Below are positions 38,728 through 55,007 of a DNA stretch of 64,000 nucleotides, one piece after another. The notes beneath the pieces were generated by a model that did no database searches, was not told the origin of the DNA, and saw only the letters and a program-made list of their open reading frames with translations. The DNA lies in the NCBI GenBank assembly GCA_903825645.1, contig CAIKBL010000042.1, positions 1 through 64,000 on the forward strand. The letters are read 5' to 3'. Numbering within the stretch: the first letter of the stretch is position 1; the number at the start of each line of letters is the position of its first letter. Both the position numbers and the translations under genes were made by a program. The stretch is from an uncultured Pseudomonadota bacterium. Its GTDB lineage: Bacteria > Pseudomonadota > Gammaproteobacteria > Ga0077536.

Positions 38728-39084
38728 CTAGCGTTTGAGTGCGCTGAGGTGACTGATCTGCGCCGCAAAATGGGCCGCGAGTCGGTCAATATCGGCATCC
38801 GTGAGTTTCAGGGCTTGCACCTGTGCACCCATGATGGGGTTATTGCGGCGCCCCATGCGGTAATCGCGCAGGGCATGGGCGATATAGTCCGCATGCTGCC
38901 CAGCCAGAATGGGGTATTCGGGCATGATCGGCTTGGCACCGTTCTCGCCATGGCAGGCCGTACAGGCAGCAAGCTTGCTCTCGAAAGGCAAGCCGTCACT
39001 CGCGGGGGAAGCTCCTTCGGCGCAAACAGCGCCGGAAACCAGGGCCATTCCACAAGCGAGAAGAAGGGGGCGCAATAAGGTCAT
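38728..39084 (-). CDS. Cytochrome c, single haem
   Basis: A 118-residue periplasmic c-type cytochrome. The N-terminus (MTLLRPLLLACGMALVSGAVCA) is a Sec signal peptide, and the haem site CTACH follows at about residues 40-44. The distal Met is probably within NPIMGAQVQAL. It resembles one half of a di-haem cytochrome c4, as does the protein encoded just upstream (39131-39454), with a 46-base gap between the two. The frame is open to 39177, but GGAG before 39084 and the signal peptide fix the start there. Confidence 0.8.
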   Translation of the reverse strand: MTLLRPLLLACGMALVSGAVCAEGASPASDGLPFESKLAACTACHGENGAKPIMPEYPILAGQHADYIAHALRDYRMGRRNNPIMGAQVQALKLTDADIDRLAAHFAAQISHLSALKR

Positions 39085-39130
39085 GCTGGAGATCTCCGGG
39101 ATCGATAGAGAGACAGGCCCGAGCGGCCCG

Positions 39131-39454
39131 TTATTTACCCTGACTGGCAAAGAACGCCGCGATGTCGGCGATCGCATCGTCCGTCAGATTGCTTGCATTT
39201 GCATGCATGGTGTCGTGCTTGCGCCCGCCATCGCGATAGGCTTTGAGGGCGGCCGTCACATACCCTGCCTGCTGTCCACCAATGCGCGGGACATGATAGT
39301 TAGGATAGGCGTTGAAATACCCATCCACGCCGTGGCACCCGAGACAGGTCTCAGCTGCCACACGTCCGGCCGCCGCATCGCCAGCGGCCAGGACACTCGA
39401 TCCATGTGCAACGAGCAGGCCCGTGACCAGTCCATAGAAAAACCGCTTAGTCAT
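39131..39454 (-). CDS. Cytochrome c, single haem, upstream partner
   Basis: A 107-residue periplasmic cytochrome. A Sec signal peptide (KRFFYGLVTGLLVAHGSSVLAA) precedes the haem site CLGCH at about residues 37-41. The distal ligand Met is probably in DTMHANASNL. IGGQQAGYVTAALKAYRDGGR and LTDDAIADIAAFFASQ are typical of cytochrome c4-like domains. It is transcribed before the 38728-39084 cytochrome, and together they may mimic a di-haem c4 split into two proteins. GAGGAG lies seven bases before the ATG. Confidence 0.82.
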   Translation of the reverse strand: MTKRFFYGLVTGLLVAHGSSVLAAGDAAAGRVAAETCLGCHGVDGYFNAYPNYHVPRIGGQQAGYVTAALKAYRDGGRKHDTMHANASNLTDDAIADIAAFFASQGK

Positions 39455-39873
39455 TCAATCGCTCCTCGACACCGGCGCTCATCAAATCCGGGAAAGTGAT
39501 GGCAGATCGGGCCATTAAATCTGTGAGCGGCTCATCGTCAGCCCGCCGCTCACCTTCAGGTTTCCAATGCAGCGCGCATGTTACTAAATGCGGAGTGGGG
39601 GAGGGAAGCCGCTCGCGTCCAGATCCCCCTGGTTACAGAGCCGATTTTCACTGTCCCCGCCCCGCCCGCGCCCGCGGAGAGCGTGCGGCCGGCGAGTCCA
39701 CGCGGTGTCGGGCGCCGCATCGGACGGGCGTGTCTGCCTGTACGCGCGCCCGATCGCTCGTTGCGTTGGCCACCAAAAATGATTAAGGTGCGGTCCGCCA
39801 AAGGTAAAGCAGTTTTTTAGGTTTGGTAGATAATCGCTCGCAATGACTGATTAAAAACGATCGGAGGAAGCGC
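39455..39873. other. Divergent intergenic region between cytochromes and dksA
   Basis: About 420 bases without a supported gene; the frames on both strands are rich in arginine and proline and look like shadows. It must hold the promoters of the leftward cytochrome pair and rightward dksA-like gene. A TAGATAAT near 39827-39834 is a possible -10 for the latter, without a clear -35. Confidence 0.4.
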
Positions 39874-40842
39874 GTGGCGAAACAGCCCAAAGCGAAAGCA
39901 TCCGCGAAACAACCAGCGCGGCCGGCAACGCAGACCAAAAAGAAGGCGAGCGTGAAAGCGCCCGTGACACCCGCAAAGAAAGCGGCGCCAAAACCAGCGT
40001 CGAAAAAGGTTTCCGCGAAAACGGGCCGTGTGAAAGTACCGCCCGCGAAAGCGGCCGTCAAAGCGCCAATAGGGCGGGCAAAAGCCCCCGCCAAGGCGAC
40101 ACCTCGGCCCCTAACGCCGGCGAAAGTCGTGAAAAAGGTGGCGCCGGCGAAGACCATGCCCGTCAAGCCCGCGGCGAAGACCAAACAGGCTGCGCCAAAA
40201 ACGGTACCGCTGCCCCCCGCCACGGCCGCCAAAGCGGCAGTGGCGAAAGTGGCGCGCGCGCCCAAGAAAGGCGTAGTCGCACCACCGGCACCGCCGCCGA
40301 TAGCCCTCCCGATTGCTGTGCCAGCGGTAGGTGAGAGAAAAGAAGGACCCGAGCCGGTCAAGAAAACAGCGGGGAAACCCGCTCCCAAAACCCCCAGCCC
40401 CGTACGCAAGGTAATCAATCTGGACGAGATCAAACTTCCCAGCGGCTATCGCCCTTCGCCAAACGAAGAGTTCATGTGCCCGCTTCATCTGGCTTATTTC
40501 AAACAGAAGCTTTCGAACTGGCGCCAGGAACTAATCCTTGAGTCGCAGGAAACCCTAGAACATTTGCGCACGGAGACCCGTGATGTCGGCGATGAGGCGG
40601 AACGCGCCAGCCGCGAAAGTGACAATATTCTTGAGTTGCGTACCCGCGATCGGTATCGCAAGCTGTTGAATAAGATCGATCAGGCCCTCAAGCGCATAGA
40701 AGACGGCGCCTATGGCTATTGCGAAGAGACGGGCGAAGAAATCGGTCTGGGTCGACTGGAGGCTCGGCCTATCGCGACCTTGACGGTTGATGCGCAGGAG
40801 CGGCGCGAACTTTTCCAACGCCAGTTCCGAGACGATCACTAG
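39874..40842 (+). CDS. dksA: DksA-like transcription factor with a long Lys/Ala/Pro-rich N-terminal tail
   Basis: A 322-residue protein with two parts. Residues 1 to about 190 are built from Lys-, Ala- and Pro-rich repeats resembling histone H1 or AlgP tails. Residues about 200-322 are a DksA core: EEFMCPLHLAYFKQKLSNW, a coiled coil whose tip reads DVGDEAERAS, and GYCEETGEEIGLGRLEARP. DksA binds the secondary channel of RNA polymerase and adjusts transcription with ppGpp. Of the four zinc cysteines of E. coli DksA only the first is kept (Cys283); the others are Thr286, Thr304 and Ala307. Asp74 at the tip appears as Glu. GTG start with GGAGG six bases upstream. It may be a paralogue rather than the main DksA. 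Confidence 0.85.
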   Translation: MAKQPKAKASAKQPARPATQTKKKASVKAPVTPAKKAAPKPASKKVSAKTGRVKVPPAKAAVKAPIGRAKAPAKATPRPLTPAKVVKKVAPAKTMPVKPAAKTKQAAPKTVPLPPATAAKAAVAKVARAPKKGVVAPPAPPPIALPIAVPAVGERKEGPEPVKKTAGKPAPKTPSPVRKVINLDEIKLPSGYRPSPNEEFMCPLHLAYFKQKLSNWRQELILESQETLEHLRTETRDVGDEAERASRESDNILELRTRDRYRKLLNKIDQALKRIEDGAYGYCEETGEEIGLGRLEARPIATLTVDAQERRELFQRQFRDDH

Positions 40843-40886: not shown

Positions 40887-42305
40887 ATGGCCCATGAGCA
40901 AATCCTCATCGTCGAAGAGCAGCGGGCGGTCGCAGGTGCACTAAAGCTGCGCCTGCGCGGGCTAGGTTACGATGTTTCCGCGATTGCCAAAGATGGTTTT
41001 GAAGCCATCGAAAAAGCCGGCGAGCTCAAACCCGATCTGATCCTGATGGATATCCGGCTCGGAGAGGGCATTGATGGGATCGAAACGGCACAGCGCATCC
41101 GGGCCCGCCACGATATCCCCGTCATCTACATTTCATCGCACGTCGATCTCAAGCTGCTCGAACGCGCCCGCTCGACCCGACCCGCGGGCTTCATCAACAA
41201 GCCCTTTACGACCAAAGATCTGCTGAGCGCGATTGACCTCGCGTTGCACCGTGACCATCCACCACGTCCTAATGAGGTGCTTACCGGTGCGGGGGAAGAC
41301 GCCAGCGCGCGCCCGAAGGATGGCATCATCACCGCGGACAGCGATGGCCGGATCGGATTCGTCAATAATTCCGCGGAATACCTGATTGGTTGGCAACGAC
41401 GACAGGTCGTAGGACGACCGTTGGCGGATCTGCTTAAAACATTGTACGACCTGCCGCTCGAACAGGCTGCCGCCTTGGTCGCCCGCGTGATGCAGGACGC
41501 CGTAGAAGAGCGACTGACCCGCCCGCAGAACGGACGGTTCGGACAAGGCGAACCCTGCACTGACACGCTGTCCCCGCTCTATGACGCGCAGGGACAAGTG
41601 TATGGCGTCGCGATGAAACTGACCGCCACGGAGCGGGGCTCGCACAAAATCGAACATAATGCGCCGGACCGAGCGCTCCACAAGGCGCTCGACGCCGTGG
41701 CCCATGGCATTCTGACCATTGGCGCCGATCTGCGGGTGCGCCAAATGAACCGCAGCGCACGCGAAACCCTCAGTCGTAACCGGGGAATAGAGCTTCGCAA
41801 CGATCTCCTGACACTCAACGATCGACAACTCGATCAGCGGTTCAGGGAGCTGGTACAGGCTGCCGTCACCATGGCGCAACGGGGTGATGAGCGGGCGAGC
41901 GGCGCCATGTTTGTGCGCTCTCCGGCCTCTCGCGAACATGTGGAATTGGTGGTCGCGCCGGTCCCTTGCTTGGGCTGCGGAGAAGCCGACGCCCAGATTT
42001 TGTTATATCTCTTCGATACAAGTAGTCCGCGCCAAGTATCATTCGACGTCCTAACCGGACTGTACGGCTTGACGCATACCGAAGCAAAGCTCGTCCAATT
42101 CATGACGAATGGCATGACGCTAGATGAAGCCGGCGAGGAGCTCGAGATTTCGGTTAACACCGCGAGGACCCACCTCAAACACATCTTCCACAAGACCGGG
42201 ATCAACCGGCAGACCGAACTCCTGCACCGAATCGAGAGCGGACCTGCGTCCCTGCTCGTCAGCTTCGAGGGCAGTCACCTGGCAGAGCCGACCACACGGC
42301 GCTAG
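40887..42305 (+). CDS. Response regulator with PAS and LuxR-type HTH domains
   Basis: A 472-residue transcription factor. Residues 1-125 form a receiver with phosphoacceptor Asp55 and Lys in FINKPF; the acidic pocket is EE (10-11) rather than DD or DE. A PAS domain follows (about 140-250, with DGRIGFVNNSAEYLIGWQRR). The middle region (about 255-400) is a second sensor-like segment with HGILTIGADLRVRQMNRSAR. The C-terminal domain is LuxR-type HTH: LTHTEAKLVQFMTNGMTLDE, then NTARTHLKHIFHKTGI. No kinase gene is adjacent. It starts 44 bases after the DksA-like gene, so both may be transcribed together. Confidence 0.85.
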   Translation: MAHEQILIVEEQRAVAGALKLRLRGLGYDVSAIAKDGFEAIEKAGELKPDLILMDIRLGEGIDGIETAQRIRARHDIPVIYISSHVDLKLLERARSTRPAGFINKPFTTKDLLSAIDLALHRDHPPRPNEVLTGAGEDASARPKDGIITADSDGRIGFVNNSAEYLIGWQRRQVVGRPLADLLKTLYDLPLEQAAALVARVMQDAVEERLTRPQNGRFGQGEPCTDTLSPLYDAQGQVYGVAMKLTATERGSHKIEHNAPDRALHKALDAVAHGILTIGADLRVRQMNRSARETLSRNRGIELRNDLLTLNDRQLDQRFRELVQAAVTMAQRGDERASGAMFVRSPASREHVELVVAPVPCLGCGEADAQILLYLFDTSSPRQVSFDVLTGLYGLTHTEAKLVQFMTNGMTLDEAGEELEISVNTARTHLKHIFHKTGINRQTELLHRIESGPASLLVSFEGSHLAEPTTRR

Positions 42306-53835: not shown

Positions 53836-53911
<76 letters not shown>

Positions 53912-54591: not shown

Positions 54592-54759
54592 CGGCGGTCC
54601 CAACGCCGTGCGGAAACGAAGTTGGCCCATATCCCCCGTAAAACCCCACGCTGTTCGCACACCGGCATCTGCTCTAGGGCTCGACTGAGCGCCCAAGAGC
54701 CATATGAACGGAGACGTCCACGTACGGATCTTTGAGAGGCCCGACGACAGCTCCCCGGG

Positions 54760-55007
54760 CCAACTCGACTCCGCGACACGGTGAAAGGTGTGCAATTGAG
54801 CGCCAGTCTTTCTTCCTGGACTGAAACCACCAAGGCGAATCGGCTGGAGCCCAACGCGTACCTGCGCCGCGTGTTCACCTTGCTGCTGCAAGCCACCTCG
54901 GTCGCCGACATCGAAGCCCGGCTGCTCTGGCACCCACACGAAGACTCAGCGGGAAGCTAGTTCACCGCGCGTTCTCTCGTCAATGACAGAGTTGCTGGAC
55001 CGTTTAC
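54760..55007 (+). mobile_element. IS66-family transposase C-terminal remnant and right end
   Basis: The plus-strand frame ending at the TAG of 54958-54960 reads DTVKGVQLSASLSSWTETT, KANRLEPNAYLRRVFT and SVADIEARLLW. This matches the C-terminus of IS66 transposases (consensus TAKANGLEPYAYLRHVF). The bases after the stop lead to a terminal-repeat-like GGACCGTTTAC near 54997-55007. The rest of the transposase and the accessory genes are missing. A related degraded end lies at 480-546. Confidence 0.7.

Follow-up and report, generated by a model that had tools for sequence, protein, structure and literature searches.

A zinc-less, lysine-tailed DksA, very likely the single housekeeping DksA of its gammaproteobacterial lineage

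The stretch of DNA analysed here (the window) comprises the first 64,000 nucleotides, forward strand, of contig CAIKBL010000042.1 (assembly GCA_903825645.1), from an uncultured gammaproteobacterium of the GTDB lineage Ga0077536. Its dksA gene (39874..40842, plus strand, the whole open reading frame (ORF) with its stop codon) encodes 322 residues, in which a DksA core follows a long N-terminal tail rich in Lys, Ala and Pro. The original prediction, made from the DNA letters, saw in the tail and in the loss of zinc ligands a meaningful combination, the mark of a special transcription factor, perhaps one serving under zinc limitation or oxidative stress. Instead, this protein is very likely the lineage's one DksA, with a housekeeping role, and the explanation that we consider probable overall is a housekeeping DksA whose tail has a loose affinity for polyanions. 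As such it is an ordinary example; the recurrent lysine tail is the notable part.

The gene reads from a GTG start codon, preceded by a Shine-Dalgarno-like GGAGG (39863..39867, +). The DksA core that had been recognized in it is confirmed by the TIGR02420 dksA profile, which matches residues 201-310 with 143.2 bits, above the curated cut-off of 115.5, and by two domain profiles, each over its cut-off: PF21157 for the DksA_N coiled-coil domain (residues 206-275, 40489..40698, +), also seen in the predicted model, and PF01258 for the zf-dskA_traR-type globular region (residues 278-312, 40705..40809, +). Alignment to Escherichia coli DksA (1tjl) is gapless (E 4e-29), query residue 190 corresponding to E. 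coli 21. It places the zinc ligands C114, C117, C135 and C138 opposite Cys283 (40720..40722, +), Thr286, Thr304 and Ala307, so that one ligand of four is retained and the C4 zinc site is absent by this alignment, exactly as predicted; a zinc-independent core, very probably without C4-type zinc binding, is what such a sequence implies. At the tip of the coiled coil the DxxDxA motif has become DxxExA, Asp71 and Ala76 being kept while Glu243 (40600..40602, +) occupies the place of Asp74, a substitution that had also been read correctly. Among L95, K98, R129 and K139, which we take to be the DksA side of ppGpp (guanosine tetraphosphate) site 2, with Lys139 presumably a ppGpp contact, three are retained, and Gln308 (40795..40797, +) replaces the lysine. 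Compared with E. coli DksA (1tjl, 5vsw, 7khi; TIGR02420), the window protein thus shares the coiled-coil core, the C-terminal helix, Asp71, Ala76, R91, L95, K98, R125 and R129, but differs by its missing C4 site, Glu74, Gln139 and a basic tail of 177 residues. Between the window and six close relatives the nonsynonymous divergence (pN) of the core is low, 0.04-0.14, with synonymous sites near saturation.

A structure model was built from 32 sequences; the alignment came from a scan for relatives seeded partly with YCEETGEE and biased to this cysteine pattern, and the scan was not used for frequencies. The modelled core (residues 181-300) is helical, with block means of 73-89 for the predicted local distance difference test (pLDDT), and the tail, at 46-60, has no secondary structure and is predicted to be disordered. 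The best structural matches to the model are 1tjl, 4ijj, 7khi and 5vsw, as expected of a DksA fold, with target-normalised template-modelling (TM) scores of 0.77 for 1tjl, 0.80 for 4ijj (zinc-free DksA2 of Pseudomonas aeruginosa) and 0.78 for 5vsw (the complex with RNA polymerase and ppGpp). Chlamydia DksA (6ptg), which keeps one of the four cysteines by alignment, ranks next with weaker E-values. The genome also holds the partners of a working DksA: one long SpoT/RelA, an omega subunit starting MARITIED, and a beta' subunit that retains N680, K681 and D684, presumably the polymerase side of ppGpp site 2. Our preferred reading is a functional DksA that needs no zinc: the core is conserved, the model is DksA-like, these partners are present, and zinc-less homologues, namely Rhodobacter sphaeroides RSP2654, Sinorhizobium meliloti SMc00469 and P. 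aeruginosa DksA2, are reported to function like DksA (PMC9239242; this and the other reports given by PMC number are cited from excerpts). DksA2 is the closest in design, with its zinc-free globular domain and its Thr and Ala at the second and fourth ligand positions; its solved chain, however, has 136 residues and no long tail, whereas the window protein is tailed and also lacks the third cysteine.

How many DksAs does such a bacterium have? The source genome (4.1 Mb in 90 contigs, 99.5% complete) yielded no second DksA-length gene, a search with the core and one with TIGR02420 giving one match each. PF01258 was found in just two more of its genes, which encode 88 and 92 residues and match short TraR/YbiI-type models. 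The same state holds throughout the bacterial family, sampled as 25 genomes of which 24 had a DksA match (the other, G006, is 62% complete). All 24 DksAs show C-T-T-A at the zinc positions, Glu74 and Gln139, and 22 are tailed. A locus was counted as tailed when at least 60 residues precede the core, including a 60-residue stretch with at least 9 Lys and at least 27 Lys, Ala and Pro together. The remaining two, L088 and L097, the latter showing 76 Lys-poor residues, fail this rule and are among the six of 24 loci cut at the 5′ side by contig ends. Fifteen further, weaker matches occur in 10 of the 24 family genomes, and 14 of them are short four-cysteine DksA/TraR-like proteins. The fifteenth, L257, is a truncated tailed DksA that runs into a different contig end of G003. 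Its identity to the query core is 90% where the two overlap, and it may represent either the one gene again, from an assembly of mixed origin, or a further copy. Several of the short four-cysteine proteins (within L258-L271) share an N-terminal stretch of the ELDQSRVGRLSRMDA type or the ADFAEQ type in place of the DksA tip. Two contigs titled as a Klebsiella pneumoniae metagenome-assembled genome, CAMATU010000025.1 (L006) and CAMCQE010000008.1 (L021), also encode family DksAs, with best-segment identities of 94% and 76%; the label looks wrong.

Zinc loss reaches beyond the family. The order Lysobacterales, to which Aquimonas belongs and also, we presume, Xanthomonas citri, was sampled as 41 genomes, 39 of them matched, giving 41 loci (38 genomes and three second copies, weaker second matches left out; G122 is the same place as G036, L188, and was counted once). 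Of the 40 loci that can be read here (L250 is without the zinc region; L247 is cut), every one is missing the full zinc site and has Gln139, and Glu74 is found in 38 of 41. These proteins of another order share such core traits with the window protein; 20 of the 41 loci are tailed, and the tail is absent from 17 of the 38 with Glu74. The class sample (loci L001, L086 and L114-L203) has four cysteines in 78 of 92 loci and a tail, of 73 to 393 residues, in 33, of which 27 also have an intact zinc site. It was drawn from 94 genomes, 90 of them matched, and its 92 loci come from 89 genomes, three with two loci, weaker second matches again being left out; G113 and the second G047 copy, both zinc-less, with 37 and 44 open-frame residues before the core, stand outside it. 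Tail lengths are counted from the earliest codon that could serve as a start, which can overstate them, and with other cut-offs between 26 and 35 of the 92 loci count as tailed.

No association between tail and zinc loss was found in the class sample, where tails occur in 27 of 77 four-cysteine loci and in 6 of 14 others (Fisher p 0.56, leaving out the 5′-cut locus L181). On a tree of 120 cores the fewest changes needed are two for zinc loss, one for Glu74, two for Gln139 and 28 for the tail; as the tree has few columns, with 8 starred and 74 open branches among 117 inner ones, the last is a rough figure. Starred branches carry only two independent tail/zinc pairs, too small a number for a verdict. 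Across the three samples, Glu74 occurs only in the family and in Lysobacterales, the class sample having it in 3 of 92 loci, all in those two groups, and its clade has a support of 94 without being starred. A search for the Glu74 tip by codon pattern hit none of 36 genomes and missed even the Glu74-bearing G122, so that this pattern is too narrow to be informative. Judged from these sequences, tail and zinc loss look like separate traits, the one restless and widespread, the other clade-wide. Because the two look independent, their combination carries no special meaning, contrary to what had been supposed.

The tail itself was described by the original prediction as 190 residues resembling histone H1. 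Its Lys/Ala/Pro-rich, basic nature stands; the low-complexity part is shorter, about 177 residues (39874..40404, +), and is followed at about residues 178-205 by a linker to the core (RKVINLDEIKLPSGYRPSPNEEFM..., 40405..40488, +) that is similar among family members. Within residues 1-177, Ala accounts for 24%, Lys and Pro for 20% each, and the acidic residues Asp and Glu together for 1.7%, for a net charge of +39. This nearly acid-free composition is that of histone-H1-like tails of the AlgP, PhaF and HupB kind. With 36 Lys for 6 Arg the tail contrasts with six neighbour proteins, in which Lys amounts to 0.7-5% and is outnumbered by Arg; no other 80-residue stretch in the six frames of the whole window reaches the Lys/Ala/Pro threshold applied; and the frame runs open across tail and core in six close relatives too. 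For these three reasons the tail, as far as the sequence tells, is not a chance feature. Lysine also prevails over arginine in all three sets of tails, which total 979 Lys to 135 Arg in the family, 869 to 174 in Lysobacterales and 1304 to 202 in the class sample (the samples overlap by a few loci). No further copies of the tail were found in the genome at E 0.01, low-complexity queries being hard to search. The minus strand over the tail carries an ORF of 216 codons (39783-40433), which we reject as a real gene and judge to be a by-product of the repetitive GC-rich tail; such false genes can mask a DksA extension in annotation. A similar antisense gene overlies dksA of Xanthomonas euvesicatoria, and its deletion from the annotation was proposed by the authors (PMC5559785).

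A translated long extension of DksA is in fact already known, from that same species. Peptides and start-codon mutants place the start of X. euvesicatoria DksA at a GTG upstream of the annotated one, and a processed form was also seen; the dksA row of a table gives 256 and 147, taken here for the new and old lengths from an excerpt without column heads (PMC5559785). The likeness to the window protein concerns the extension only, its lysine content lying outside the comparison.

In the mechanism that we propose, the core would fold without zinc, as DksA2 does, its coiled coil would insert into the secondary channel of RNA polymerase, and the protein would work together with ppGpp at the promoters of rRNA, ribosomal and amino-acid genes. 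The less certain step concerns the disordered tail, which would attract DNA, or another polyanion, weakly and independently of sequence, and so would hold DksA near the nucleoid and RNA polymerase while leaving the mechanism of the core unchanged. DNA comes first as a partner because the tails of AlgP, PhaF and HupB bind it or are thought to: the KPAA-type tails of AlgP and PhaF (PMC9239181) and the PAKK/KAAK tail of HupB, which strengthens DNA binding (PMC5676037). The window tail has at most 7 Lys in any 20 residues, and we put the chances that DNA is its main partner at about even, by analogy with these proteins. The analogy, which extends to actinobacterial TopA, is one of composition (Lys-rich, basic, H1-like, with Lys/Ala/Pro in AlgP), and no homology is claimed; those tails are C-terminal, whereas that of DksA is N-terminal, with KPAA and PAKK sparse.

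Several observations weigh against this explanation. Zinc-type relatives, the short four-cysteine proteins mentioned above, do coexist with DksA in 10 of the 24 family genomes. The model as a whole is weak (mean pLDDT 63, predicted TM score 0.40, 48-64 over the C-terminal 22 residues). Glu at 74 and Gln at 139 might change the response to ppGpp or the way in which promoters are controlled. Tandem KPAA or PAKK/KAAK repeats were not found in the window tail, which has one KPAA, one PAKK and no KAAK. Finally, family tails, measured from the start codon as above, range from 83 to 400 residues and evolve quickly, as weakly constrained sequence would too.

A partner other than DNA is the first alternative: the tail might bind polyphosphate, RNA or the ribosome, DksA being parked or released as polyphosphate builds up in starvation. 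The genome has PPK1, and AlgP, whose tail has a similar make-up, localises to polyphosphate granules (PMC9239181). The original prediction had named DNA or polyphosphate as ligands; the composition suits DNA or a polyanion in general, and it is on polyphosphate that one published rule tells against it. In polyphosphate gel shifts two proteins with 9 Lys per 20 residues were shifted and two with 5 and 7 were not (PMC12077175), so that the window tail is at the level of a non-shifting protein, by a rule that rests on four proteins. The level of both shifting proteins is reached by 17 of the 33 class-sample tails, but by only 9 of 22 in the family and 2 of 20 in Lysobacterales. We hold this alternative to be rather unlikely.

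The tail might also be a nearly neutral low-complexity expansion, possibly clipped after translation and of little effect. The tree, weakly resolved as it is, needs at least 28 changes of tail state; length varies widely; the tail evolves faster than the core, with a pN of 0.25-0.40 between the window and its six relatives; and the processed form of X. euvesicatoria DksA (PMC5559785) would agree with clipping. Neutrality would, however, sit poorly with a lysine content held well above that of arginine in a window of 60% GC, with acidic residues at 1.7%, with the presence of the tail in every family member left uncut by a contig end, and with the recurrence of a like make-up in separate families. 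This makes a mere expansion unlikely.

Doubtful, by our estimate, is a core that has drifted into another working mode, in which D74E and the glutamine at position 139 make the ppGpp-dependent action weaker and the tail makes good the lost affinity. The restriction of Glu74 to two groups (3 of 92 class, 24 of 24 family and 38 of 41 Lysobacterales loci) would fit such a drift, as would a report that calls the DxxDxA motif critical (PMC9239242). Against it, the beta' residues N680, K681 and D684 are retained, and the tail is not required, since 17 of the 38 Lysobacterales loci with Glu74 do without it. Moreover, in X. citri the one named dksA keeps tRNA and ribosomal genes repressed, acting in parallel with ppGpp, and its deletion derepresses them (PMC6804348); its residue 74 is outside this comparison, and the excerpt describes a zinc finger domain in the protein.

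We reject, as extremely improbable, a special paralogue for zinc limitation or oxidative stress that would accompany a canonical zinc DksA, in the way that DksA2, the zinc-starvation paralogue of P. aeruginosa, accompanies DksA1. The source genome, 99.5% complete, yielded no other gene of DksA length; the close relatives share the tail (every uncut family member) and the zinc loss (24 of 24, with an identical genotype); and a zinc-less DksA is likewise the norm in Lysobacterales (all 40 loci that could be read). Such a lineage norm had been named beforehand as the outcome refuting a special factor.

With a housekeeping DksA as the preferred reading, interest moves to the tail. The E. coli model DksA has none, while about one third of the class-sample loci bear one, and searches of open-licence PMC text returned no description of a Lys-rich DksA tail. 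We advance only tentatively the broader idea that Gammaproteobacteria have repeatedly attached an H1-like lysine tail to DksA, coupling the ppGpp-DksA starvation switch to the state of the nucleoid or to polyphosphate, possibly with proteolytic clipping to turn it off. If true, this layer of control is absent from the E. coli model, and if tails tether DksA to DNA or polyphosphate, the control of transcription in starvation also has a spatial side, missing in E. coli. If the tails do nothing, a recurrent oddity is settled.

Within the window, dksA lies between a pair of cytochrome c genes (minus strand) and a REC-PAS-LuxR regulator (plus strand), itself followed by an AddA-like helicase-nuclease (minus strand). 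The regulator, identified by profile match and by comparison of family loci (40887..42305, +), begins 44 nt downstream of dksA in the same orientation, and this short gap suggests a shared transcript. In the family, 17 of the 24 loci, counting that of the window, have a relative of the regulator next to dksA and on its strand; for the remaining seven, none turned up within the stretch covered. A promoter scan of 39400-39873, upstream of dksA, found no sigma-70-like promoter. The two small cytochrome c genes (38728-39177 and 39131-39454, minus strand, profile match) overlap by 47 bases and diverge from dksA, and several family loci have relatives of these genes close to dksA. Elsewhere, about 0.8 kb after a tRNA gene (53836-53908), an Rfam match to a group II intron (54695-54769, +; 42.9 bits for a gathering threshold of 40) marks a possible insertion.
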